This document shows, piece after piece, positions 1 through 13,445 of a stretch of DNA of 64,000 nt. The DNA lies in contig JAGWPU010000077.1 in the NCBI GenBank assembly GCA_028870355.1, positions 1 through 64,000 on the forward strand, in the 5' to 3' direction. The first letter of the stretch is position 1. Each line of letters begins with the position of its first letter. The position numbers and the translations under genes are program-made. Under the pieces are notes generated by a model. The model worked only from the letters and a program-made list of their open reading frames with translations. It ran no database searches and was not told the DNA's origin. This DNA is from Gammaproteobacteria bacterium. GTDB lineage: Bacteria > Pseudomonadota > Gammaproteobacteria > Steroidobacterales > Steroidobacteraceae.

Positions 1-639
<639 letters not shown>

Positions 640-644
640 TGCGT

Positions 645-666
645 CGCGCGGGCGGGTGCCCGCGCG
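645..666 (+). terminator. Hairpin after rpoD, probable terminator
   Basis: A 9-bp perfect GC stem (CGCGCGGGC / GCCCGCGCG) with a GGGT loop begins six bases after the rpoD stop. There is no clear T-run after it, so it could be a weak intrinsic terminator or an mRNA 3'-end stabiliser. Confidence 0.5.
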
Positions 667-710
667 ATCGCTTCCCTGCCCTCCCGACCCGCTCGCGGCG
701 CCGACCACGC

Positions 711-760
711 GGCATCGCGTTCGCGGCATCGCGTTCGCGGCGTCGCGTTCGCGGCGTCGC
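711..760. repeat. Short tandem repeat, 14-bp unit
   Basis: About three and a half copies of a 14-bp unit (ggcatcgcgttcgc, with the fourth base drifting from A to G in later copies) lie in the rpoD/porin intergenic gap. The rest of the 640-903 gap has no convincing gene; bases 783-805 are locally AT-richer and could hold a promoter for the following gene. Confidence 0.75.
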
Positions 761-912
761 ACTCGCGCGACAAGGCGAACATCCTAAGTAGTTATCCGTA
801 TTTGTTCGCGGCACTCGCTTGCGTATCTTGCGCGATGAGAAATTGAAGAAATGGCGCAACCGTCGATCAATCCGGGTCGACCCAGTACGCCATCAGCGAG
901 AGGATGTCAGCG

Positions 913-2340
913 ATGTTGCAAAAACCCCGATTGAGAAAGTTCCTGCCGCACCTCGTGCTGCTCGGCGCGTGTGCGGGCGTCGCCGCCCCGAGCTGGGCGG
1001 TGCCGAGCTTCGCGCGCCAGACCGGTATGGCCTGCGCGGCCTGCCACACGGTGTTCCCGGAGCTCACCCCGTTCGGCCGCGAGTTCAAGCTGAACGGCTA
1101 CGTGCTCGACAACATGAAGCAGATCACCGGGATCACGACCAACGCGCAATCCACGCTCTCGCTGAACGAGATCCCGCCGATCAGCTTCATGCTGCAGGTG
1201 TCGTACACGCACACCGGCTCGCCGCTCCCCGACAGCGCGCTGACCGGTGCGTACGCGAAAAACGGCGACGTGCTGTTCCCGCAGCAGGCGAGCTTCTTCT
1301 ACGCCGGCAAGATCGCCGACAATCTCGGCGCGTTCGTGCAGCTGACCTACGACGGCGTCGGCGGCTCGTTCGGGCTCGACAACACCGACGTGCGCTACGC
1401 GCGCCACGTGGAGCTGCCGTCCTTCGGCAACAAGGACCTGGTGATCGGCGTCACGCTGAACAACAACCCGACGGTGCAGGATCCCTGGAACACCACCCAG
1501 GCCTGGGGATTTCCGTACGCCGGCAGCGCGACCGCGCCCGGACCGGCGGCGTCCACCAAGCTCGATAGCGGCGGGATCGGCCAGTCCGCGGGCGGGCTCG
1601 GCGTCTACGCGTGGTGGAATCACAGCCTGTACGCGGAGGTGACCCTGTACGCCGCGGCGATCCAGGGTGGCGCGCACCCGCTCGACAGCACGCAGGCGGC
1701 GGTGATCCACGGCGTCTCGCCGTACTGGCGCCTCGCGTACGAAGCTCGCTGGGGCCGCAATTCGCTGGAGGTCGGCACCTACGGGATCGACGCCCACATG
1801 CACCCGGGCAGCGGCAACGCACTCGCCGGACCGACCGACGAGTATCTCGACGTCGCCGGCGACGCGCAGTACGAGTACATCGGCGGAGACAACATCTTCA
1901 CGGTGACCTCGACCTACATCCACGAGCGGCAGACGCTCGCGGCGAGCGTGCTGGACGGCTTCGCGGCGAACGACCACAACACCTTGAAGACGTTCAAGCT
2001 GATGGGCGAGTACTACTATCAGCGCATGATCGGCGCGTCGATCGGGTACTTCAACACGACCGGGACGAGCGATGCGGTCCTCTACGCGGCGGCGCCCGTC
2101 GGCGGAAGCGCGGTGAACAGCCCGGACTCGAACGGCGAGGTCTTCGAAGTCAACTACCTTCCGTGGCTGAACACGAAGCTCCAGCTGCAGTACGTCCACT
2201 ACAACAAGTTCAACGGCGGCACGACCAATTACGACATCGGACCCGGACCCTACGATCCCGCCGTGTACGCACCCGGCACCGTCGGCCGCAGCGCGTCCGA
2301 CAACGACACCCTGTACCTGCTCGCCTGGCTGAATTTCTGA
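913..2340 (+). CDS. Cyc2-like outer-membrane porin fused to a monohaem c-type cytochrome domain
   Basis: The start at 913 is preferred over the ATG at 904 because GAGAGG at 898-903 then lies 9 bases upstream. Numbered from the 904 ATG, a signal peptide runs to about residue 32 (SWA|VPS). It is followed by PSFARQTGMACAACHTVFPELTPFG, with the haem site CAACH at 44-48, and then about 400 residues of alternating beta-strand character ending in a terminal Phe, as outer-membrane barrels do. Length (478 aa from 904) and the FARQTGxxCxxCH...FGRxFKLxGY block match the Cyc2 fused cytochrome-porin family, whose studied members pass electrons from Fe(II) across the outer membrane. Many homologues have no proven substrate, so iron oxidation is an inference. 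The dihaem cytochrome directly downstream is a plausible periplasmic acceptor. Confidence 0.8.
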   Translation: MLQKPRLRKFLPHLVLLGACAGVAAPSWAVPSFARQTGMACAACHTVFPELTPFGREFKLNGYVLDNMKQITGITTNAQSTLSLNEIPPISFMLQVSYTHTGSPLPDSALTGAYAKNGDVLFPQQASFFYAGKIADNLGAFVQLTYDGVGGSFGLDNTDVRYARHVELPSFGNKDLVIGVTLNNNPTVQDPWNTTQAWGFPYAGSATAPGPAASTKLDSGGIGQSAGGLGVYAWWNHSLYAEVTLYAAAIQGGAHPLDSTQAAVIHGVSPYWRLAYEARWGRNSLEVGTYGIDAHMHPGSGNALAGPTDEYLDVAGDAQYEYIGGDNIFTVTSTYIHERQTLAASVLDGFAANDHNTLKTFKLMGEYYYQRMIGASIGYFNTTGTSDAVLYAAAPVGGSAVNSPDSNGEVFEVNYLPWLNTKLQLQYVHYNKFNGGTTNYDIGPGPYDPAVYAPGTVGRSASDNDTLYLLAWLNF

Positions 2341-2377
2341 CGCGGCGTGCCCAAACGAAAGGCGGAGTGAACGAGTT

Positions 2378-3001
2378 ATGAAGCGAAGAACCCTGTTGAC
2401 ACTGACTCTCGGCGCATGCGTCGGCCTCGGAGGGCTCGCGCAGGCGCAGAACCTCGCGAACGCGCAGGACAAGGCCCAGCTCAAGGCGACGATCGACAAT
2501 TGCTCGGTCTGTCACGGCATCGACGGCCGCAGCGTGTCGCCGACGTTCCCGAACCTGGCGGCACAGCAGCCGGTGTACATCGAGAACCAGCTGAAGGCGT
2601 TCAAGGATCACACGCGCGGCGACCCGAACGCGCAGGCGTTCATGTGGGGCATGGCGTCGGGGCTCAGCGACCAGATGATCACCCAGGTCGCCGAGTACTT
2701 CGCGTCGCAGCCGCCACCGTCGCCGGAGAAGGGCGATCCGAAGCTGATCGCGGAAGGACACCACATCTTCACGCACGGCATCCCGGCGGAAGGGGTCCCG
2801 GCGTGCGCGAGCTGCCACGGGCCCGACGCCGCAGGCCGGGGGATGTTCCCGCGGCTCGCCGGTCAGCACCAGGAATACCTGCTGAAGCAGCTGCTCGTGA
2901 TCCAGACCGCTTTGCGTAACGCCCCGGTGATGCACGGGGTGATCAAGGATCTGTCCCGGCAGCAGATGGACGCAGTCACGACTTATCTGGCGTCGCTCTA
3001 A
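2378..3001 (+). CDS. Dihaem cytochrome c (c4-like), periplasmic
   Basis: The 207-residue protein has a signal peptide (residues 1-23, cleaved near AQA|QN). Two c-type haem sites follow, CSVCH at 42-46 and CASCH at 143-147, each in a roughly 80-residue lobe. Candidate axial methionines lie in AFMWGMASGLSD and APVMHGVIKDLS. The layout is that of cytochrome c4, a two-domain electron shuttle that usually feeds terminal oxidases. It lies 37 bp after the porin-cytochrome on the same strand and before a shared terminator, so the two are probably co-transcribed and act in one electron-transfer path. A promoter within the 37-bp gap is not apparent. Confidence 0.88.
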   Translation: MKRRTLLTLTLGACVGLGGLAQAQNLANAQDKAQLKATIDNCSVCHGIDGRSVSPTFPNLAAQQPVYIENQLKAFKDHTRGDPNAQAFMWGMASGLSDQMITQVAEYFASQPPPSPEKGDPKLIAEGHHIFTHGIPAEGVPACASCHGPDAAGRGMFPRLAGQHQEYLLKQLLVIQTALRNAPVMHGVIKDLSRQQMDAVTTYLASL

Positions 3002-3017
3002 CCCCCTGGGAAACGCC

Positions 3018-3052
3018 GCCCGCCGGTCGGAAACGATCGGCGGGCTTTTTTT
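3018..3052 (+). terminator. Strong intrinsic terminator of the cytochrome operon
   Basis: A 12-bp stem (GCCCGCCGGTCG / CGATCGGCGGGC, one G-T wobble) closes a GAAA tetraloop and is followed by seven Ts. It starts 17 bases after the cytochrome stop. The 3053-3264 stretch before the next gene shows no further convincing feature. Confidence 0.93.
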
Positions 3053-3264
3053 CGCCCGTTCTCCCGGTTCAGCGGCGGTCGTCGACGCCGGCCGCCGGTC
3101 GATCGGTCGCGCCGGCGCGGGCTTGGCGCATCGGGACAAGCCGACGACGCAAAATGATCAGCCAGCCCACCCCGACCTTGACCATACTCCCTCCTTTGGG
3201 GGCGAACGCGGCTCGAAGCGAGCCGCGTGGCCGGACGCTCCCCCGGCGGACACGGAGATACACG

Positions 3265-4833
3265 ATGCATGACCAGACCACCGAATCCTCCCGAGCCCGG
3301 CGCCCGAGCGGACGCGACGCCAAGCGGGCGGCCCGCGCGGCGCGCGCCGGCGCCACAGTGCCTTACATCACCCGGCGCATCCCCTACTACGAGGTGCTCG
3401 ACGAGCAAGCGCTCGCAACGCTCGAGCACAACGCCGATACGATTCTCGAGGAAGTCGGCATCGACTATCGCGACGACCCGGAGGCGCTCGAGATCTGGAA
3501 GGCGGCCGGCGCGGATGTGCGCGGCGAACGGGTGCACTGCCCGCGCGGCATGTGCCGCACCCTGATCCAGAAGACCGCGCCGCGGGAGTTCACGCAGCAC
3601 GCACGCAATCCCGCGCGCAGCGTCCGCATCGGCGGCAAGAACACCGTGTTCGCACCGGCCTACGGTCCGCCGTTCGTGCGCAGCCTCGACGAAGGCCGGC
3701 GCTACGCGCGAATCGAGGACTTCCGCAATTTCGTGAAGCTCGCGTACCTCGCGAATTCGCTGCACCACTCGGGCGGCACCATCTGCGAGCCGGTCGATCT
3801 GCCGGTGAACAAGCGCCATCTCGACATGGTGTACAGCCACCTCAAATACAGCGACAAGCCGTTCATGGGCTCGGTGACCGCGCCGGAGCGCGCGGCCGAC
3901 TCGGTCGCACTCGCGGACATCGCGTTCGGCGACGATCGGATCGATCCCGAGACGGGGCGCCCGAAGACCACGATCATCAATCTGATCAACGTGAACTCGC
4001 CGATGACCTACGACGCAACGATGCTCGGCGCCGCGAAGGTCTACGCGCGCGCGAACCAGGCGACGATCATCACCCCGTTCATCCTCGCCGGCGCGATGTC
4101 TCCGGTCACCGTCGGCGGCACGGTCGCGCAGACGCTCGCCGAGGCCTTGTCCGGCATGGCGTTCGTGCAGCTCGTGAATCCGGGCGCCCCGATCGTTCTC
4201 GGCAGCTTCGCCTCCTCGATCTCGATGCAGTCGGGCGCGCCGACGTTCGGCACGCCCGAGCCCGCGCTGGTGCTCTACGCGATGGCGGCGCTCGCGCGGC
4301 GGCTCGGCGTGCCGTTCCGCTCCGGCGGGAGCCTGTGCGCGTCGAAGATTCCGGACGCGCAGGCCGCGTTCGAGTCCGCGAACACCCTGCTGCCCACCTG
4401 TCTCGCGGGTGTGAATTTCGTGCTGCACACCGCCGGCTGGCTCGAGGGCGGGCTCGCGATGGGTTACGAGAAGTTCGTGATGGATGCCGACCAGGCCGGC
4501 ATGATGCACACCCTGCTCGCGGGCATCGATCTCAGCCCGAACGGACAGGCGCTCGAGGCGATCCGCGAGGTCGGCCCCGGCAAGCACTTCCTCGGTTGCA
4601 ACCACACGCAGGCGAACTTCGAGACCGCGTTCTACCGCTCGCCGCTCGCCGACAACAACAGCTACGAGCAGTGGGAGGCCGAGGGCGCGAGCGACATGGC
4701 GAAGCGAGCGAACGCGTTGTGGAAGAAGCAGCTCGCCGAGTACGTGCCGCCGCCGCTCGACCCGGCGACCGACGAGGCGATGCTCGAGTACATCGCGAAG
4801 CGCAAGGCGGCGTTCCCCGACTCCAACGTCTGA
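3265..4833 (+). CDS. MttB-superfamily methylamine/betaine:corrinoid methyltransferase (non-pyrrolysine)
   Basis: The product is 522 residues from the ATG at 3265, with a GGAG-type ribosome site about 9 bases upstream; an upstream in-frame ATG at 3154 has no such support. The protein has the MttB/COG5598 fold signatures, for example LEEVGIDYRDDPEALEIWKAAGADV near the N-terminus, the NVNSPMTYDATMLGAA and PFILAGAMSPVTVGGTVAQ blocks, and a FLGCNHTQANFE tail motif. There is no in-frame TAG, so it lacks the pyrrolysine of archaeal MttB and belongs with the MtgB/MtcB-like quaternary-amine demethylases. It should move a methyl group from a quaternary amine to the cobalt of the corrinoid protein encoded at 10913-11623. 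The actual amine (glycine betaine, proline betaine, carnitine and so on) cannot be told from sequence. It faces the rest of the module on the opposite strand. Confidence 0.9.
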   Translation: MHDQTTESSRARRPSGRDAKRAARAARAGATVPYITRRIPYYEVLDEQALATLEHNADTILEEVGIDYRDDPEALEIWKAAGADVRGERVHCPRGMCRTLIQKTAPREFTQHARNPARSVRIGGKNTVFAPAYGPPFVRSLDEGRRYARIEDFRNFVKLAYLANSLHHSGGTICEPVDLPVNKRHLDMVYSHLKYSDKPFMGSVTAPERAADSVALADIAFGDDRIDPETGRPKTTIINLINVNSPMTYDATMLGAAKVYARANQATIITPFILAGAMSPVTVGGTVAQTLAEALSGMAFVQLVNPGAPIVLGSFASSISMQSGAPTFGTPEPALVLYAMAALARRLGVPFRSGGSLCASKIPDAQAAFESANTLLPTCLAGVNFVLHTAGWLEGGLAMGYEKFVMDADQAGMMHTLLAGIDLSPNGQALEAIREVGPGKHFLGCNHTQANFETAFYRSPLADNNSYEQWEAEGASDMAKRANALWKKQLAEYVPPPLDPATDEAMLEYIAKRKAAFPDSNV

Positions 4834-4858
4834 GCGCGGGTCCGGCCGGCGGCAGCTC

Positions 4859-5212
4859 TCAAGAGCGGCGACGCTCCGGAGCGTCGCCGCTCGGGCTCAG
4901 CCCCGGGGCGGTCGTGGCGACGAGGTCGCGCAGCGCTCCGAGGATGCGCGCGTGCTCGGCGAGCGTGAGTCCGCCGCGCTGCGCTTCATAATGGGCGAGC
5001 GCGGCGCCCGCGTCGGGGAAGTGCCGGGCGTGCTTCAGATCCCGGGTGAATTTCTGCCAGGACGCTTCGAATTCCCCGAGCGAGGCGACCGGAGGCCAGG
5101 TCGCGAGGTACTGGCCGCTCTCACCGACGCTGCGCACCCTGCGCACGAATTCCTCGCGCGTCGTGCGCAGCACTTCGACCGGCTTCATGTGTGCGACCAG
5201 CACGACGATCAT
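4859..5212 (-). CDS. Small conserved-looking hypothetical protein at the end of the corrinoid operon
   Basis: The 117-residue product starts at ATG 5212, chosen because GGGAGGG stands 5 bases upstream; a longer in-frame start at 5275 lacks one. The protein begins MIVVLVAHMKPVEVLRTTRE and is rich in charged helix-forming residues (for example TREEFVRRVRS and EASWQKFTRDLKHAR). It has no signal peptide, membrane segment or cysteine motif that I recognise. It lies 166 bp downstream of the activator gene on the same strand, so it may be the last gene of the C1 operon or separately transcribed. Function unknown; reality of the gene rests on the ribosome site and codon texture. Confidence 0.55.
   Translation of the reverse strand: MIVVLVAHMKPVEVLRTTREEFVRRVRSVGESGQYLATWPPVASLGEFEASWQKFTRDLKHARHFPDAGAALAHYEAQRGGLTLAEHARILGALRDLVATTAPGLSPSGDAPERRRS
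4863..4892. repeat. 30-bp perfect palindrome at the 3' end of the methyltransferase gene
   Basis: GAGCGGCGACGCTCC is followed immediately by its exact reverse complement with no spacer. It lies 30 bases after the mttB-like stop and inside the last codons of the opposite-strand small gene. It could act as a bidirectional terminator hairpin, although neither side has a T-run, or as a protein-binding palindrome. Confidence 0.85.
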
Positions 5213-5378
5213 CGCAGCCCTCCCGGAAAATGAAGGCGATGGCAACCCGCCAAGTCCCTTTATGCGGGCCGCCACCGCCAGTTCGTCGAGCGACCGCTGC
5301 GGCTCGCGTGATTCTGTGACAAAAAAATAGCACGGAATCGGCAGCGAACGCCATCCCGCCGAGTGCGCAGGCGAGGCT

Positions 5379-7400
5379 TCAGGGGGTCGTTCGGTCGTCG
5401 CGCCGCGACCGTCGACCGCGGCTCTGCGCGGCGGGCGCGGCCTCTTTCGGCGCGGGCAACTCGACGACCGCGCGCAGATTCCGGTAGGCGGCGGTCTTGT
5501 GCGGGAGCGCCATCGCCTCGACGAAGTGCTGCTGGAACCGCGGCTCGATCGCCGTCTCCATCTTCTCGATCCGCCGGACCAGGGTCTCGATCACGCCGCG
5601 CGAGCTCTGATCGAGCAGGGCGATCCGCGCACCGGTACCCGCCGCATTGCCGGCGGAGCTCACCTGCTTCAGGTCGCAGTCCGGGATCATCCCGAGGATC
5701 ATCGCGTACTTCACGTCGATGTGGCTGCCGAAGGCGCCCGCGAGCCGGATCCGATCGACATGATCGATACCGAGCCGCTCCATCAGCAGCGCGATGCCGG
5801 CGTAGAGCGCGGCCTTCGCGAGCTGGATCGCCCGAACGTCGTTCTGCGTGATCTTGAGCTCGAGCGCGCCCTGGTGCAGCACGTACGCGAAGGTCCGGCC
5901 ATTCGCGACGATGCGCGGCGACCGGTCCGCGAGACGGCCATCGACCACCCCGTCCTGGTTGATGATCCCCGCGAGGTACATCTCCGCGATCGCCTCGATG
6001 ATCCCGGACCCGCAGACGCCCGTGACCCCGGTCGCTTCGGCGGCGGCGGCGAAACCGGGCTGGTCGGACCATAGATCGGTACCGATGATCTTGAAGCGCG
6101 GCTCGAGCGTCTGCGGATCGATGCGGATTCGCTCGATCGCGCCCGGCGCCGCACGCTGGCCGCAACTGATCTGGGCGCCCTCGAACGCCGGGCCGGTCGG
6201 ACTGGAGCACGCGACCAGGCGATCACGATTGCCGAGGACGATTTCGGCGTTGGTGCCGACGTCGACCAGCAGCGTCATCTCCTCGCCGAGATCGGGCCGC
6301 TCGGCGAGCACCATCCCGGCGGCATCGGCACCGACGTGACCGGCGATGCACGGCAGCACGTAGATCCGCGCGTTGCGGTTCACCTTCAGGTCGATTTCGC
6401 TCGCCCACATCGTGGTCGACATGTCCGTCGCGAGCGCGAACGGTGCGCCGCCGAGCTCGACGGGGTCGATCCCGAGCAACAGGTGATGCATGATCGGATT
6501 GCCGACGAACGTCGCCTCGAGAATGTCCTCGGGCGAGAGTCCCACGCTCTTCGTCACGTCGGCGGCGAGCGCCGACAGCGCCTCGCGGACCGCCGCGGTC
6601 ATCTGCGCCGCACCGCCCGGATTCATCATCGAATAGGACACGCGGCTCATCAGATCCTCGCCGAAGCGGATCTGCGGATTCATCACGCCGGCGCTCGCGA
6701 CGACATCGCCGGTCTGCAGGTCGCACAGATGCGCCGCGATCGTCGTCGAGCCGACGTCGACCGCGAGGCCATAGGCCTTTTCGTGCAGGCCAGGCCACAC
6801 GCCGAGGATCCGGGTGCCCGCGTGGACGGCGACCGTCACGGCCCAGCCGCCCGCCCGCAGCGCGGGCTGCACCGCCTGCAGGACCCGCAGATCCGAGGAC
6901 AGGTCGCGCAGCCCCCATTCCTTCTCGAGCGCGTCGTACAGCCGGCGCAGGTCGCCGGACGGATCGTGCATGTCCGGCTCGCGCACCTGCACGTAGTGCA
7001 GGCGCACGACCGGATCGAGCTCGATCGAGCGCACCTCGGCCTCCTTGCGGACGACCTGCCGATGCACCTGGCTGCTCGCCGGCACGTCGATCACGACGTC
7101 GGCCTCGATCCTCGCCGAACACGACAGGCGCCGTCCTTCGGCGAGCGACATGCGCTTCGCGTAGCGCCGCTCCGGTTCGCTGAACGGCGTCAGGCTCTCT
7201 TGCGAGGAGGTGATGCCGTGCTTCGCGAATTCGCCTTCGGCCACGAGCACCTGACAGCGGCCGCAGAGTCCGCGGCCGCCGCACACCGAATCGATGTCCA
7301 CGCCGAGGGCTCGCGCCGCCTGCAGCACCGGGGTGCCGATCGGGAAACGGCCCCGCTTGCCCGAGGGCATGAAGACGATCAGCGGATCCGGCGTGGTCAT
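5379..7400 (-). CDS. Reductive activator of corrinoid protein (RACo/RamA-type, 2Fe-2S ferredoxin plus ASKHA ATPase)
   Basis: 673 residues from ATG 7400. The N-terminal plant-type ferredoxin domain has cluster cysteines at 40, 46, 49 and 94 (CGGRGLCGRC and RLSCSAR). A linker leads into an ASKHA-type ATPase (DUF4445), with phosphate-binding motifs AVDVGSTTIAAHL, LLVDVGTNAEIVL and GVCGSGIIEAI. Proteins of this kind use ATP and an electron from the Fe-S cluster to return accidentally oxidised Co(II) corrinoid to the active Co(I) state. Its partner here should be the corrinoid protein at 10913-11623. It lies 16 bp downstream of the methyl-H4folate methyltransferase gene in the same operon. The C-terminal ~25 residues are Arg/Ala-rich and probably disordered. 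Confidence 0.93.
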   Translation of the reverse strand: MTTPDPLIVFMPSGKRGRFPIGTPVLQAARALGVDIDSVCGGRGLCGRCQVLVAEGEFAKHGITSSQESLTPFSEPERRYAKRMSLAEGRRLSCSARIEADVVIDVPASSQVHRQVVRKEAEVRSIELDPVVRLHYVQVREPDMHDPSGDLRRLYDALEKEWGLRDLSSDLRVLQAVQPALRAGGWAVTVAVHAGTRILGVWPGLHEKAYGLAVDVGSTTIAAHLCDLQTGDVVASAGVMNPQIRFGEDLMSRVSYSMMNPGGAAQMTAAVREALSALAADVTKSVGLSPEDILEATFVGNPIMHHLLLGIDPVELGGAPFALATDMSTTMWASEIDLKVNRNARIYVLPCIAGHVGADAAGMVLAERPDLGEEMTLLVDVGTNAEIVLGNRDRLVACSSPTGPAFEGAQISCGQRAAPGAIERIRIDPQTLEPRFKIIGTDLWSDQPGFAAAAEATGVTGVCGSGIIEAIAEMYLAGIINQDGVVDGRLADRSPRIVANGRTFAYVLHQGALELKITQNDVRAIQLAKAALYAGIALLMERLGIDHVDRIRLAGAFGSHIDVKYAMILGMIPDCDLKQVSSAGNAAGTGARIALLDQSSRGVIETLVRRIEKMETAIEPRFQQHFVEAMALPHKTAAYRNLRAVVELPAPKEAAPAAQSRGRRSRRDDRTTP

Positions 7401-7416
7401 GCGATGTCGTTCCGGT

Positions 7417-8337
7417 TCAGGCCGACGGGCGGCGCCGCAGCCCACCCTCGCGGCGGCCACGGGCCGCGCCCTCGCCCGCCGCGCCCGGCGGCGGCACTTC
7501 GCGGTACTTGCGGATCCAGCGCGCGCAGTCCGGATCGTGGCCCATCATCACGTCGGCCCCCATGCACGCGCGCACGACGTCCGCGTGCAGCGGATTCGCG
7601 ATTGCCGAGGTCATCCCGGCGCCGATCGCCATCGTGAGGAACGCGCTGTTGATCCCGTCGCGATTCGGGAGGCCGAAGCTCACGTTCGACGCGCCGCAGG
7701 AGGTGTTGACCTTGAGCTCGGTCCGAAGCCGATGCACCAGCCGCAGCACCTGCACGCCGGCGGAATTGATCGCACCGATCGGCATCACGAGCGGATCGAC
7801 GACGACGTCGCTCGCGGGAATCCCATGATCCATCGCGCGCTCGACGATCTTCTTCGCCACCGCGAAACGCACGTCCGGATCCTCGGAGATCCCGGTCTCG
7901 TCGTTCGAGATCGCGATCACCGCGGCCCCGTATTTCTTCACCAGGGGCAACACGGCTTCGAGCCGCTCTTCTTCGCCGGTCACCGAATTCACGAGCGCCT
8001 TGCCCTGGTAGACCTTCAGACCCGCTTCGAGCGCCGCGACGATCGAGGAATCGATCGACAGCGGAACGTCGGTGATCGACTGGACGAGCTTGACCGCCTT
8101 CGCGAGGATCGCCGGCTCGTCGGCGAGCGGGATCCCGGCGTTGACGTCGAGCATGTGCGCACCCGCCTCGACCTGGGCGCGCGCGTCGGCCTCCACGCGG
8201 CTGAAGTCGCCGGCCGCCATCTCCGCGGCGAGGATCTTGCGTCCCGTCGGGTTGATCCGCTCGCCGATGATCACGAACGGGCGTTCGAAGCCGATCACCA
8301 CTTCCTTGGTCGCGGAACTCACTACGGTATCTGTCAT
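7417..8337 (-). CDS. Methyltetrahydrofolate:corrinoid methyltransferase (MtgA/AcsE/MtrH-like, pterin-binding TIM barrel)
   Basis: 306 residues forming a pterin-binding TIM barrel like AcsE and the MetH folate domain. Motifs include FVIIGERINPTGRK at the N-terminus, HMLDVNAGIP, VPLSIDSS, VNSVTGEEE, AAVIAISNDETGI and NTSCGASNVSFGLPNR. It should take the methyl group from the methylated corrinoid protein and pass it to tetrahydrofolate, giving 5-methyl-H4folate. The last ~25 residues (Gly/Arg-rich) are outside the family core. An AGGATGA ribosome site precedes the start. Neighbouring MetF/MetV-like genes would then oxidise the product. Confidence 0.92.
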   Translation of the reverse strand: MTDTVVSSATKEVVIGFERPFVIIGERINPTGRKILAAEMAAGDFSRVEADARAQVEAGAHMLDVNAGIPLADEPAILAKAVKLVQSITDVPLSIDSSIVAALEAGLKVYQGKALVNSVTGEEERLEAVLPLVKKYGAAVIAISNDETGISEDPDVRFAVAKKIVERAMDHGIPASDVVVDPLVMPIGAINSAGVQVLRLVHRLRTELKVNTSCGASNVSFGLPNRDGINSAFLTMAIGAGMTSAIANPLHADVVRACMGADVMMGHDPDCARWIRKYREVPPPGAAGEGAARGRREGGLRRRPSA

Positions 8338-8388
8338 GGGGTCATCCTGTGGAGTGTCGTAGGGTCTCGGACCTGCGGTCCGGGATTC

Positions 8389-9414
8389 TCAAGCGGCGCC
8401 GGGCGGGTGAGAACCCGGCGGATCCTGGTCGCGCTGCGGATACCAGGGCACGCGCCCGGCGAGCACGCCAGAACGCTCGATGATCTCGGCGACGGTCTCT
8501 TCCTGCCGGTACGCCATCACGTGCACGCCGCTGATCCCGGAGATCTCGCGGATCGCCTGGATCTGTTCGATGCAGATGTCCCGTCCCTCGCGCGCGGGAT
8601 CCTTCGCACCGGCGAGCCGGTCGATCAGTGCGTCGGGAACGTGCATGCCGGGCACGTTGCGGCGCATCCAGTCGGCCGTCTTCGCCGAGCGCAGCGGACC
8701 GACGCCCGCGAGGATGAAGACCTTGCCGACGAGGCCGAGATCCTCGACGTGGCGCATGAAGCTGCGCAGCAGCGACAGGTCGTAGCAGTACTGCGTCTGG
8801 ATGAACTGCGCACCGGCGGCGACCTTCTTCGCGAGCCGACGCGCTCGCCAGTCGTGAGGCAGCGCCGACGGATTCTCGGCGGCGCCGAGGAACACGTGCG
8901 GCGGCGACGTGATCTTGCGCCCGCTCTGGAAGTGGCTCTCGTCGCGCAAGGTGCGCGCGATCGTGAGCAGCGACACGCAATCGAGATCGAAGACGGGCTT
9001 CGCCTGCGGATGATCCCCCGCCTGCACGCCGTCACCGGTCAGGCAGAGCATGTTGCACACGCCCATCGCCGCACCGCCGAGGATGTCCCCCTGGATCGCG
9101 ATGCGGTTCTTGTCGCGGCAGGAGATCTGCATCACGGGCGCGTAGCCGATCCGGGTCAGGAGCGCGCAGACCGCGACGCTCGACATGTGGCAGTTCGCAC
9201 CGCTGCCGTCGGTCGCGTTGATCGCGTCGGCGTACCCGTCGAATACCCGCGCGCGGGCGTAGACCTCGTCCGGGTCCGCGGAATCCGGTGGCGCGAGCTC
9301 GGTCGTGACCGCGAACGAACCCGCTCGCAATACCCGCTCGAGTCGCCCGGGAGAACTATGGCCCGGAAGGATCGGCAACGGCTGTCCGGGCGCCGGCTCG
9401 TCGTCGAACTTCAC
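8389..9414 (-). CDS. metF: 5,10-methylenetetrahydrofolate reductase (MetF family)
   Basis: 341 residues starting from GTG 9414, which overlaps the preceding stop as GTGA. The FAD-binding MTHFR barrel is seen in AVTTELAPPDSADPDEVY, DAINATDGSGANCHMSS, GYAPVMQISCRDKNRIAIQGD, NMLCLTGDGVQAGDHP and GAQFIQTQYCYD. The family interconverts 5-methyl- and 5,10-methylene-H4folate. In this operon it is placed to run in the oxidative direction on methyl groups delivered from the corrinoid protein. Its immediate coupling to a MetV-like gene mirrors MetVF pairs, in which MetF works only as a complex. A role in methionine synthesis is less likely given the context. Confidence 0.92.
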   Translation of the reverse strand: MKFDDEPAPGQPLPILPGHSSPGRLERVLRAGSFAVTTELAPPDSADPDEVYARARVFDGYADAINATDGSGANCHMSSVAVCALLTRIGYAPVMQISCRDKNRIAIQGDILGGAAMGVCNMLCLTGDGVQAGDHPQAKPVFDLDCVSLLTIARTLRDESHFQSGRKITSPPHVFLGAAENPSALPHDWRARRLAKKVAAGAQFIQTQYCYDLSLLRSFMRHVEDLGLVGKVFILAGVGPLRSAKTADWMRRNVPGMHVPDALIDRLAGAKDPAREGRDICIEQIQAIREISGISGVHVMAYRQEETVAEIIERSGVLAGRVPWYPQRDQDPPGSHPPGAA

Positions 9415-9911
9415 CGGCTCGCCCCTCCCGCCGGTTTCGCCGCCTTCGGGGCCGCTTCGGGCTTCGCGGTCTTCTCGCGCACGACGCGAAGCCACGACGA
9501 TCGACCCTTGAGGCGCTGATCGACGGCGAACTGGACCTCGCTCATCGCGTCGACTCCGCCCTCGATGCGCCGGCTACCGCGGAACGCCTCGACCCAGACG
9601 CATTTCATCTCCGGCTTGACTTCGCAATGCCCGTTCGCGCGCACGCCGCCGCAGGGGCCGTTGCGCAGGGTCTTCGGACAATTCATCGGGCACGACATCC
9701 CCGTCGAGCTCAGGGCGCACTGTCCGCACATCTGGCAATCGAACAGGAATCCCTTGACGTTGCGCTCGACGAACGCGACCGGGCGCTCCAGGCGCTCGTA
9801 GCCGATCCGCTCGAACCAGCGGTGGCAGCGCACGAGCAGTGCCTCGAATCCGCGATAGAACGCGTTGAGTCCGCGCGCGTGTCGCACGGACCATTGCCGC
9901 ACCGAGTACAT
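9411..9911 (-). CDS. MetV-like cysteine-rich partner of methylene-H4folate reductase
   Basis: 166 residues from ATG 9911, which overlaps the upstream stop as ATGA. The core is cysteine-rich: DCQMCGQCALSSTGMSCPMNCPK then NGPCGGVRANGHCE, the signature of the MTHFR C-terminal/MetV family (PF12225 type), which binds zinc or an Fe-S cluster. The N-terminal ~50 residues form helices with basic patches. It overlaps metF by 4 bases, implying coupled translation and a fixed stoichiometry. The C-terminal tail (KTAKPEAAPKAAKP) is low complexity. Confidence 0.85.
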   Translation of the reverse strand: MYSVRQWSVRHARGLNAFYRGFEALLVRCHRWFERIGYERLERPVAFVERNVKGFLFDCQMCGQCALSSTGMSCPMNCPKTLRNGPCGGVRANGHCEVKPEMKCVWVEAFRGSRRIEGGVDAMSEVQFAVDQRLKGRSSWLRVVREKTAKPEAAPKAAKPAGGASR

Positions 9912-10258
9912 CAGGACGCTCCGGTGCCGGCCCCGGACGATCCCTCGGACGGCGGCGGTCCCGGATCGAGGCCCTTCGCGCGGATCAACCGCTCGAGGTC
10001 TTCGTCGCTGTACCGCGCCTCGATCGACGCCGCCTCGGCGGCGGCTTCTGCCTGCAGGTCGTCGCTGCACGGCCGCGGGGCACTGCGCTTCCAGTCCGCG
10101 AGATACGCATCGGAACTGCCCTTGCCGGCGCGCATCGCGGCACGGTCGACCGCCTCCTGGAAACGCGGCGACAGCTGCACCTTCGCCGACTGGCGACCGC
10201 GCTTCACGACCACCTGGGCCGGAATGTCACGCCAGGAGATGATCGTCAACTCGCCCAT
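9911..10258 (-). CDS. Virulence_fact-family small protein of the corrinoid module
   Basis: 115 residues. The N-terminal ELTIISWRDIPAQVVVKRGRQ followed by VQLSPRFQEAVDRAAMRAG matches what I recall of the family annotated as 'virulence factor' (PF13769). That name is historical and says nothing about its role here. It overlaps the DUF1638 gene upstream by 13 bases and the MetV-like gene downstream by 4. Tight coupling to C1 genes suggests an accessory role in methyl transfer or in assembly of the reductase complex. The C-terminus is Gly/Pro/Ser-rich. No catalytic motif is evident. Confidence 0.7.
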   Translation of the reverse strand: MGELTIISWRDIPAQVVVKRGRQSAKVQLSPRFQEAVDRAAMRAGKGSSDAYLADWKRSAPRPCSDDLQAEAAAEAASIEARYSDEDLERLIRAKGLDPGPPPSEGSSGAGTGAS

Positions 10259-10896
10259 GTCACCACCCGTTCCTCGCGATCCGCGGCGCCCTGGCCGCGT
10301 TCGAGCGCCGCGGCGAGACTCGTCGCGAGCGTCCCGTAACCCGTGACCCGATAGTCGAACGCGAGGCCCATGCGCTCGGCGATCGCACGGGCGTCCCGTT
10401 CGGCCGTCTCGCTCGGCCGCTGCGCGAGGTAGACGAGGCGTCGGTAATTGCCGAAATACATCGGAAATAGTTCCGGGTGCCGGTCGAGACCGAGGCCGCG
10501 GATCACCAACCGATCGAAATGCCGCAGCAGGAAATCGGTGAGATAGAACGACCCGGGGTCCTCGTCGGCGAGTGCGGCGAACGCCCGCTCGGTCGCGTAG
10601 AACTCGTAACAATGCGCGCCCGGAATCCGCTCGACGCCTTCCTCGGCCAGCACCTGGTCGAGCAGTCCGCCGGTTCCGCAATCGCCGTAGGCGACGAAAA
10701 TCGACCGATACCGGGGGCGGGACTCGCGGATCAGATCACGAACCGCCGCGGGGATGCGTTCGGGGCGATTGTGCAGTTCGGGCGGCAGACAGCGCACGTC
10801 GAGCGCACTCCAGCCGTTCGCCGTGCGCAGCGCCGCCACCTCGTGGGCGAGCGCGCCGCAGGCGATGATCAGCGTGCCCTGCCCGTCGAGCGCCAT
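10246..10896 (-). CDS. DUF1638 protein of the corrinoid module
   Basis: 216 residues. Recognisable DUF1638 features are the start TLIIACGALAHEV, the VRCLPPELHNRPERI block, FVAYGDCGTGGLLD and the conserved FPMYFGNYRRLVYLAQ. The family often sits beside corrinoid protein/MttB genes, but its reaction is not established. The two cysteines in ACGAL and YGDCGTGG, plus CYEFY, could bind a metal or ligand; this is inference. It lies 16 bp downstream of the corrinoid protein gene, and its stop is embedded in the next gene. Confidence 0.82.
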   Translation of the reverse strand: MALDGQGTLIIACGALAHEVAALRTANGWSALDVRCLPPELHNRPERIPAAVRDLIRESRPRYRSIFVAYGDCGTGGLLDQVLAEEGVERIPGAHCYEFYATERAFAALADEDPGSFYLTDFLLRHFDRLVIRGLGLDRHPELFPMYFGNYRRLVYLAQRPSETAERDARAIAERMGLAFDYRVTGYGTLATSLAAALERGQGAADREERVVTWAS

Positions 10897-10912
10897 CGAG
10901 CCCTCTGCTCGC

Positions 10913-11623
10913 TCAGTTCGCCGCGGACCGGCTGCTGCGGCGCTTCGCGATCAGCGTCTTCGCGGTTTCCACCGCGATCGCCGCGTCGCGGCAATAGGCG
11001 TCGGCGCCGACCGCCTTCCCGAACTCCTCGTTCAGCGGCGCGCCCCCGACGAGCACGATGTAGTCCTCGCGGATGCCCCGCTCCTTCAAGGTATCGATCA
11101 CGACCTTCATGTAGGGCATCGTCGTGGTCAGCAGCGCCGACATTCCGAGGATGTCCGGCTTGTGCTTTTCCAGCGCTTCCAGGTACTTCTCGACCGGATT
11201 GTTGATCCCGAGGTCGATGACCTCGAAACCCGCGCCCTCGAGCATCATCGAGACGAGGTTCTTGCCGATGTCGTGGATGTCACCCTTGACCGTGCCGATC
11301 ACGACCTTGCCGATCGGTTCGACGCCGGTCTCGGCGAGCAGGGGACGCAGGATCTCCATTCCGCCTTTCATCGCGTTCGCGGCGAGCAGCACCTCGGGAA
11401 CGAACAGGATGCCGTCCCGGAAGTCGATGCCGACGATGCGCATCCCTTCGACCAACGCGTCGTTCAGCACCTTCTCCGCGGCCCACCCGCGCTGCAGGAA
11501 GATCCGCGTGGCTTCCTCCACCTCTTCCTTGAGGCCGTTGTAGAGGTCGTCGTGGACCTGCTCGATCAACTCTTCGTCGTTCAGCGACGCCAGGTCGAAA
11601 TCACCTTCAGTCTGCTCGGCCAT
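10913..11623 (-). CDS. Corrinoid (B12-binding) methyl-carrier protein, MttC/MtgC family
   Basis: 236 residues, the usual size of methyl-accepting corrinoid proteins. The N-terminal four-helix cap (residues ~15-100) is followed by a Rossmann-like B12 domain. The cobalt-ligating motif is GDIHDIGKN, with His117 as the lower ligand, then GFEVIDLGINNP, the ALLTTTMPYM helix and VLVGGAPLNEEF. It accepts a methyl group from the MttB-like enzyme (3265-4833) and donates it to H4folate through the protein at 7417-8337. It is the first gene of the minus-strand operon, so its upstream region (11624-11924) should contain the operon promoter. A long acidic N-terminus precedes the cap. Confidence 0.94.
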   Translation of the reverse strand: MAEQTEGDFDLASLNDEELIEQVHDDLYNGLKEEVEEATRIFLQRGWAAEKVLNDALVEGMRIVGIDFRDGILFVPEVLLAANAMKGGMEILRPLLAETGVEPIGKVVIGTVKGDIHDIGKNLVSMMLEGAGFEVIDLGINNPVEKYLEALEKHKPDILGMSALLTTTMPYMKVVIDTLKERGIREDYIVLVGGAPLNEEFGKAVGADAYCRDAAIAVETAKTLIAKRRSSRSAAN

Positions 11624-11924
11624 CGCGGTCTCCAGCTGTCTTTTTCACGGGTCTCGCGCGCTCGCTCCGCGCCCTGGACATGAGGATCGCATACTAAGTG
11701 CCCCCCGCAGGCGACACTTAACTCATCGCGACGGTCTCGGATCCAGATGCGACAGCCCCTGCCCGCAGAGGACTGCCACGCCGGGCTATTGTCGCATTCC
11801 GACAAGGCGGAGGGAATCTGCGGCAGTGGCCTCGCCGGCTGGAGCATGTAATCATACTCGGTTGAGATCTATCATGGGTCGCCCGCCCCGTGCGCCCCCG
11901 ACCCTCGCCGTGGAGTGACGCATT
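11624..11924. promoter_or_regulatory. Divergent control region between the corrinoid operon and betC
   Basis: This 301-bp gap separates two divergent transcription units and contains no gene I can support. It holds an inverted repeat TTGTCG-N5-CGACAA at 11789-11805, a plausible dimeric regulator site. A looser pair, AAGTG/CACTT, flanks the GC run at about 11696-11718. I see no cobalamin riboswitch core. A GGAG ribosome site for betC lies at about 11912-11915. Confidence 0.5.
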
Positions 11925-13445
11925 TTGAACGCGCGACCGAACCTCTTGATCCTGATGGCCGATCAGTTGACCGCGGGCGCCCTGCGCGCCTACGGGAATC
12001 CGACGAGTCGCACGCCCCGCATCGACGCACTCGCCGCAGGCGGGGTCGTCTTCGATTCCTTTTATTGCAACAGCCCGCTGTGCGCGCCGTCCCGGTTCTC
12101 GTGGATGGCCGGACGCCTGCCCTCGAAGATCGGCGCGTTCGACAACGCCGCCGAGCTGCCGGCCTCCGTGCCGACGTTCGCGCACTACCTGCGGGACGCG
12201 GGCTACCAGACGGTGCTGTCCGGGAAGATGCACTTCTGCGGGCCGGACCAGTTGCACGGCTTCGAGGAGCGGCTCACGACCGACATCTATCCGGCCGATT
12301 TCGGCTGGACGCCGGACTGGACGCGGTTCTCCGAGCGGCTGAGCTGGTATCACACGATGGATTCGGTCACGCAGGCCGGCCCCTGCGTGCGCACGAATCA
12401 GATCGACTTCGACGACGAGGTCGTGTTCAACGCACGACAAAAGCTCTTCGATATCGCCCGATCCAAGGACCGCCGCCCGTTCTGCATGGTCGTCTCGATG
12501 ACGCACCCGCACGATCCGTACGTGATACCGGAGCCTTACTGGAACCGCTACGACGGCGTCGAGATCGACATGCCGCGCGTGCAAGCCGCGCCGGAACTGC
12601 TCGATCCGCACTCCCGCCGGGTTCGTCACGTGATCGGCCTCGATCTGCAGAGCGTGACCGACGCGCAGGTGCGCGCGGCGCGGCGCGCCTACTACGGTGC
12701 GGTGTCCTATGTCGACGACCAGGTCGGCGCCCTGCTCGACGCGCTCGCCGCCGCGCGCCTCGCCGACGACACGGTGATCCTGCTGATCGCCGATCACGGC
12801 GACATGCTCGGCGAGCGGGGCCTGTGGTACAAGATGACGTTCTTCGAGCCGGCATGCCGCATCCCGCTGATCGTGCATGCGCCGCGCCGATTCGCGCCGC
12901 GTCGCATCGCGCAGTCGGCATCGCTGGTCGACATCCTGCCGACGCTGTGCGAGATCGGCGGCGTTCCCGGCGAGCGCTACGCGACGCCGCTGTGCGGCCG
13001 CAGTCTGCTGCCGGCGTTGTCCGGCGCGGCGGCCGGTCCCGACGAGGTGATCGGCGAGTTCCTCGGCGAGGGCGCGATCGCACCGCTCGTGATGATCCGG
13101 CGCGGCCATTGGAAATTCGTGCATTCGCCGGTCGATCCCGACCAGCTCTACGATCTCGGCGCCGATCCGATGGAACTGCGCAATCTCGCCGCGGATCCGT
13201 CGCATGCCGGGACGGTGCGCGCGTTTCGCGCCGAACTTCAGGAACGGTGGGACCTCGCGCACTTGCACGCCGAGGTTCTCGAGAGCCAGCGACGCCGCCT
13301 TCTGGTCGACGCCGCGTTGCGCAAGGGTCGCTATGAGCCCTGGGACCACCAGCCGGTCCGCGACGCTTCGAAGCTCTACATCCGCAACGACCAGGAATTG
13401 AACGATCTGGAAGCGATGGCCCGCTTCCCGAAGGTCGGCGGCTGA
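11925..13445 (+). CDS. betC: Choline-sulfatase
   Basis: 506 residues from a TTG start at 11925, with GGAG about 9 bases upstream. It is a type I sulfatase. The metal-site start is NLLILMADQLT, and the formylglycine motif is CAPSR with Cys53 as the residue to be oxidised. Further metal-binding segments are the DDQVGALLDAL region and LLIADHGDMLGERGLWYKM. The C-terminal cap PWDHQPVRDASKLYIRNDQ...ARFPKV is specific to choline-sulfatases. It cleaves choline-O-sulfate to choline and sulfate. No signal peptide is seen, so it acts in the cytoplasm and would need an uptake system not in this window. It diverges from the corrinoid operon and could supply choline-derived methyl groups. A separate formylglycine-generating enzyme is not encoded here. 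Confidence 0.93.
   Translation: MNARPNLLILMADQLTAGALRAYGNPTSRTPRIDALAAGGVVFDSFYCNSPLCAPSRFSWMAGRLPSKIGAFDNAAELPASVPTFAHYLRDAGYQTVLSGKMHFCGPDQLHGFEERLTTDIYPADFGWTPDWTRFSERLSWYHTMDSVTQAGPCVRTNQIDFDDEVVFNARQKLFDIARSKDRRPFCMVVSMTHPHDPYVIPEPYWNRYDGVEIDMPRVQAAPELLDPHSRRVRHVIGLDLQSVTDAQVRAARRAYYGAVSYVDDQVGALLDALAAARLADDTVILLIADHGDMLGERGLWYKMTFFEPACRIPLIVHAPRRFAPRRIAQSASLVDILPTLCEIGGVPGERYATPLCGRSLLPALSGAAAGPDEVIGEFLGEGAIAPLVMIRRGHWKFVHSPVDPDQLYDLGADPMELRNLAADPSHAGTVRAFRAELQERWDLAHLHAEVLESQRRRLLVDAALRKGRYEPWDHQPVRDASKLYIRNDQELNDLEAMARFPKVGG

Follow-up and report, generated by a model that had tools for sequence, protein, structure and literature searches.

The window analysed here, a stretch of 64,000 nucleotides from an uncultured Steroidobacter relative that seems to grow chiefly on organic matter, carries near its start a pair of genes that raises a question: does this organism draw electrons from an extracellular donor such as Fe(II), and through which partners? 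A reading made from the letters of the DNA (the sequence-only reading) had described the first gene as a Cyc2-like porin-cytochrome, a haem domain joined to an outer-membrane barrel, and the second as a c4-like dihaem cytochrome in the same operon. The coordinates that it gave for the two genes agree with the open reading frames and the sequence (Table 1).

Table 1. Features of the cyc2-cyc1 locus in window positions.
Feature	Position	Strand	Description or basis
Conserved upstream element, contains AAGTAGTTATCCGTAT	784..809	+	possible regulator site or promoter part; conserved in close relatives
cyc2, outer-membrane porin-cytochrome, Cyc2 homologue, 475 aa	913..2340	+	ORF, published motif, 13-row alignment, AF2, porin matches, dN/dS
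Parts of Cyc2: signal peptide (by eye), residues ~1-28; haem domain, ~29-70; predicted 16-strand barrel, ~90-475			
Single haem-binding CXXCH of Cyc2 (CAACH), residues 41-45	1033..1047	+	sequence, alignment
cyc1-like gene, 207-aa periplasmic dihaem cytochrome c of the A. ferrooxidans Cyc1 kind	2378..3001	+	Pfam, PDB, tree, alignment
CXXCH motifs of cyc1	2501-2515 and 2804-2818	+	
Intrinsic terminator closing the two-gene operon	3018..3052	+	12-pair stem, 10 G-C pairs, T-run

Membership of the first gene product in the Cyc2 family can be judged by the features that Keffer et al. set out in 2021, namely the motif AXPXFAR[Q/K][T/Y], described as unique to Cyc2, together with CXXCH and PXL (PMC8406198). 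After its signal peptide the window protein reads AVPSFARQTGMACAACHTVFPELTPFGREFKLNGY. It carries AVPSFARQT at residues 29-37, upstream of its one CXXCH, and PEL begins 4 residues past the His. Its length exceeds the 365 aa that Keffer et al. use as a minimum alongside a 16-strand barrel, which is predicted here. Residues C41, C44, and H45 are invariant in all 13 aligned proteins. The start at 913 is favoured over a longer open reading frame starting at 904, which was rejected because the distance from the ribosome-binding sequence GAGAGG to 913 is kept in related loci L002-L004 and L008 and because L005 has no ATG at the equivalent of 904. No Pfam or NCBIfam model matches the protein, so routine annotation would miss it, and a phmmer search against the PDB returned a single chance-level match to a nine-haem cytochrome (E 0.76). 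Comparison of cyc2 with four close relatives gives dN/dS values of 0.09-0.22, indicating purifying selection.

The barrel itself was modelled with AF2, both with and without the signal peptide, and 16 strands were predicted in both cases. Confidence is modest (mean pLDDT 57.1 and 62.3, pTM 0.63 and 0.68), with pLDDT lowest near the haem motif and in loops. The structures matched to the model by VIA-align 2 are 16-strand porins: OprB (Z 18.2, rmsd 4.5, 314 aligned), OprP (Z 17.6, rmsd 4.1, 308 aligned), 5o78 (Z 17.1, rmsd 3.8, 280 aligned), and OprO. For Cyc2PV-1 the published structural match is OprO/OprP (PMC8406198), and 5O78 is the best match given for the modelled A. ferrooxidans Cyc2 (PMC10654088). 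The sequence-only reading had called for a structure prediction and had staked itself on a barrel large enough to hold the haem domain. The number of predicted strands and the porin matches point to a barrel of the right size, and along with the published motif, the single CXXCH, and PXL they bear out the build it had proposed. We propose that the haem domain sits at or in the pore.

The identity of the second gene product needed revision. It is a dihaem cytochrome, as had been claimed, but it can be named more specifically than c4-like. Its best relative in the PDB is 1h1o (E 7.5e-41, 143.5 bits), which we take to be cytochrome c552, the Cyc1 of A. ferrooxidans and likewise a dihaem two-domain cytochrome, while the best c4 chain scores 1.2e-29 and 106.9 bits. 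A dihaem tree was built from 38 rows, 35 of them different, with few references; the partner from locus L114 was excluded on account of its single haem motif. In this tree every dihaem protein linked to Cyc2 falls together with 1h1o on one side of a branch with 98/96 support, and two c4 chains from the PDB fall on the other, as does the organism's own c4 paralogue. If the second gene were instead an ordinary cytochrome c4, adjacent to cyc2 by chance, one might expect what Pfam and NCBIfam return, which is general cytochrome c domains in the former (Cytochrom_C, 2.5e-18) and no match above cut-off in the latter. This explanation is highly improbable and was rejected because the tree, small as its reference set is, places the partner with Cyc1; the c4 paralogue of the genome sits elsewhere (C86), and the dihaem gene directly follows cyc2 in 27 of 27 rows of the clade described below. 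On sequence grounds, Cyc1 is a more fitting name for the partner than c4. That the two genes are no chance feature of the sequence is indicated by dN/dS values that span 0.07-0.22 over both of them (0.07-0.19 for the cyc1-like gene against four close relatives, which is again purifying selection) and by conservation of the pair in 11 of 12 loci fetched by similarity. One difference from 1h1o lies at position 121, where Glu is replaced by Ser in the window protein. That Glu is presumably part of the proposed rusticyanin contact site, and its loss would fit the absence of rusticyanin. A separate arrangement occurs in loci L059 and L062 (family f133), which come from small, perhaps Ferrovum-like genomes: there a dihaem gene lies upstream of Cyc2, and its protein groups with A. 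ferrooxidans Cyc1 (100/99).

The two genes lie on the + strand with 37 bases between them, and the strong terminator that follows upholds the claim of a shared operon with one terminator. In gene identity and order the pair corresponds to the start of the A. ferrooxidans rus operon (cyc2-cyc1-cup-coxBACD-rus), but it ends at 3052 without cup, cox, or rus, and an MttB gene comes next. A rus operon was therefore rejected as a description of the locus, given the terminator and a genome with no rusticyanin match anywhere in its assembly. No sigma-70-type promoter was found in a scan of 600-3300. Upstream of the pair, the conserved element in Table 1 may be a regulator site or part of a promoter. 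The pattern TARGTR-N2-6-CC, present in the window at 786-801, occurs in 12 of 27 upstream regions of the clade and in 0 of the 35 taken from other Cyc2 genes, while shuffling gave a mean of 0.5 and at most 4. These counts are to be read with the knowledge that the pattern was picked after viewing these sequences and that the sequences are related.

Comparison of 11 related loci shows that the same sigma-70 gene (99.5-100% identical) precedes the pair in four of them and that the same mttB follows it in four; the remaining loci run into a contig end or differ in their neighbours. These shared neighbours indicate that the gene pair is chromosomal in the lineage, and a binning artefact was rejected because the pair adjoins the same sigma-factor gene in 4 of the 11. 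Adjoining the operon, at 3154-13445, is a group of corrinoid C1 genes that encodes an MttB-like methyltransferase, a RACo activase, a methyltetrahydrofolate:corrinoid methyltransferase, an MTHFR-like protein, an MtgC-like corrinoid protein, and a choline sulfatase. Such a group is unusual for a presumed aerobic gammaproteobacterium, and its gene content suggests demethylation or use of betaine or choline compounds.

How widely the pair occurs was addressed with a profile built from 13 Cyc2 proteins of the window's own clade. It matched 41 of 98 relatives, with 21 of the 23 congeners among them, and at class level 63 of 369 genomes; because of the origin of the profile, remote Cyc2 types such as those of neutrophilic cluster 1 are under-sampled in these counts. 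The sole similarity-fetched locus without Cyc1 directly downstream is acidobacterial (L009), and among another 20 loci taken from relatives, 13 have Cyc1 directly downstream. Loci at the class level carry a 1.5-kb flank only, and a partner gene lying farther off would escape notice in them. Loci repeating an already present genome were omitted before a first tree, which also dropped L114 (a broken gene in two pieces), L063 and L075 (short), and L095 (a duplicate locus), and a second tree of 59 proteins further dropped L074, L076, and L109 for their long branches. In the second tree a single clade (100/98) unites the 27 proteins whose genes are followed directly by cyc1, and its members come mostly from the window's own family. 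L074 is a Cyc2 outside the clade that has a dihaem gene directly downstream. The figure of 27 of 27 leaves it out, and if it is counted in, the arrangement with cyc1 next to cyc2 needs two changes on the tree. The window protein shares its signal peptide, motif, single CXXCH, PXL, and predicted 16-strand porin with the Cyc2 family as known from A. ferrooxidans Cyc2, Mariprofundus Cyc2PV-1, and Leptospirillum Cyt572, and differs in belonging to this distinct clade with cyc1 directly downstream. The rus-operon Cyc2 of G358 (L057), the sole operon-anchored Cyc2 of rus type, falls outside the clade, and an AU test in which the window clade was joined with rus-type Cyc2 gave a p-AU of 0.053 with this single anchor, which does not reject the joint grouping. 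Both G358 (Acidihalobacter-like) and G302 (Acidiferrobacter-like) are named by published gene order only. The identification of G358 is imperfect since no cyc1 was found in the 14.5 kb retrieved for it though the published operon has one, and G302 has no Cyc2 match and so offers no second rus-type anchor.

Within the genus the record is uneven. Of the 23 congeners, two lack any match, and G005, G008, and G014 have a partial or distant match only. In G007 (L114, 2008-4019) a stop codon lies inside cyc2 and Cyc1 is reduced to one haem motif, which amounts to decay of both genes and means that the module is dispensable somewhere. These cases lend some weight to the idea that the pair is a relic or serves a minor function, such as clearing Fe(II) from the periplasm for protection, and has no role in energy metabolism. 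We consider this improbable, as most of the genus retains the pair and the low dN/dS values cited above hold for both of its genes. A second, distant Cyc2 type without Cyc1 is also present in some relatives of the same genus and family (L105-L110), several of its members having a longer spacer (CHTVAYGPALT) between CXXCH and a PXL-like motif.

The rest of the genome bears on what the pair could be connected to. Four COX1 matches indicate that oxidases are available. Neither the RuBisCO large chain nor MtrB/PioB (PF11854), the mark of an Mto/Pio system, has a match in the organism's own genome (0 of 1 for PF11854), absences that need care because the assembly is 91.85% (~92%) complete. The remark that no other iron-oxidation marker was in view can be extended to the whole genome for the two markers searched, rusticyanin and MtrB/PioB. 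For RuBisCO the absence stands on firmer ground. The enzyme is present in 14 of 23 congeners, including the two closest, G006 and G016. A clean empty RuBisCO site is seen when L116 (13286-13305, on the organism's own contig C25) is set against L094 (8354-14255). The sequences on either side of a 5.9-kb cbb stretch in G016 meet at 13293-13305 of C25, which is 49 kb long. An assembly gap at this place was rejected because both flanks are directly adjacent within C25, where an isocitrate lyase gene follows. The cbb genes identified in G006 are those for RuBisCO, an AAA ATPase, fructose bisphosphatase, and a LysR regulator. The empty site would mean that, within this genus, carbon fixation was either lost or never gained.

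What, then, would the pair do? The explanation that we favour, and hold to be probable, is that it forms a rusticyanin-free module for electron uptake in which Cyc2 passes electrons directly to Cyc1 and Fe(II) serves as an auxiliary energy source. Cyc2 would be exported by way of its signal peptide, receive one c-type haem in the periplasm, and insert in the outer membrane as a 16-strand barrel. There it would take single electrons from dissolved Fe(II) and pass them on to the dihaem carrier Cyc1, translated from the same transcript, and Cyc1 would carry them to a haem-copper oxidase for energy and perhaps to bc1/complex I for reducing power. The module would supplement growth on organic carbon. 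Support for uptake comes from the published Cyc2 motif and length, the 16-strand models, the Cyc1 partner, the single clade of 27 proteins, and COX1. Counting against it are the position of the clade apart from rus-type Cyc2, the modest AF2 confidence, the Ser at position 121, the decay in G007, and the functionally unverified state of much of clusters 2 and 3 noted by Keffer et al. (PMC8406198).

A different role for the same conduit has to be weighed, in which the donor is not Fe(II) but reduced humics, another metal, another cell, or a surface, or in which electrons flow outward. Many members of the published Cyc2 tree come from organisms that are not known to oxidise iron, and its authors allow for other functions (PMC8406198); the window organism, with no RuBisCO and with betaine/choline C1 genes next door, is no classic lithoautotroph. 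Still, all three Cyc2 types described as characterised oxidise Fe(II) (PMC8406198), the cyc2-cyc1 order is shared with A. ferrooxidans, a model iron oxidiser (PMC10654088), and the dihaem partner is of the Cyc1 kind. We judge a donor or direction of this other sort to be rather unlikely, though less so than the alternatives discussed above. For transfer from Cyc2 to Cyc1 with Fe(II) as donor, support by analogy may be drawn from two systems that pair Cyc2 with c-type cytochromes as in the window. Ferrovum JA12 is described as lacking rusticyanin, and its Cyc2 is proposed to feed electrons to soluble cytochromes, which by their locus tags are encoded apart from cyc2, unlike the window pair (PMC4725956). 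Sulfuriferula isolates with Cyc1 and a cluster 2 Cyc2 grew on ferrous iron (PMC12285272). Both are autotrophs.

The presence of Cyc2 in this lineage is not new. The Cyc2 of Steroidobacteraceae MAG 28 (L004, contig JABEVI010000135) belongs to the same genus group, is 79% identical to the window protein, and has the same neighbours. In 2021 this congener from acid mine drainage was put forward as a possible iron oxidiser, with an entry for Cyc2-like Fe(II) oxidation, and was also listed as carbon-fixing (PMC8357290). A RuBisCO search of G013, taken as the MAG 28 assembly, gave no match. Homologues of Cyc2 and Cyc1 in heterotrophs of acid mine drainage have likewise been published (PMC10654088). 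In the accessible text on iron oxidation in Steroidobacteraceae, no mention of the pairing with Cyc1 or of the RuBisCO-less state was found. The present analysis refines the earlier reading in three ways: it names the partner as Cyc1, it places the cyc2-cyc1 pairs in a single clade, and it finds the pair decoupled from RuBisCO.

We suggest tentatively, and with rather less confidence than the function itself, that a two-gene, rusticyanin-free Cyc2-Cyc1 module with direct transfer has been stable and vertically kept in Steroidobacteraceae and retained by members lacking the Calvin cycle, with Fe(II) auxiliary to organic carbon such as betaine or choline compounds. In other respects the locus is the kind of addition one would expect to a family already recorded at acidic, iron-rich sites. 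Should the module work as proposed, the pair would constitute a minimal unit for iron oxidation, with its periplasmic carrier identified by the operon, making the Cyc2-to-Cyc1 step testable without rusticyanin. A module kept beside a cleanly missing RuBisCO locus would also separate Fe(II) oxidation from autotrophy within one genus, a separation that matters for the use of cyc2 as a marker of lithoautotrophs.
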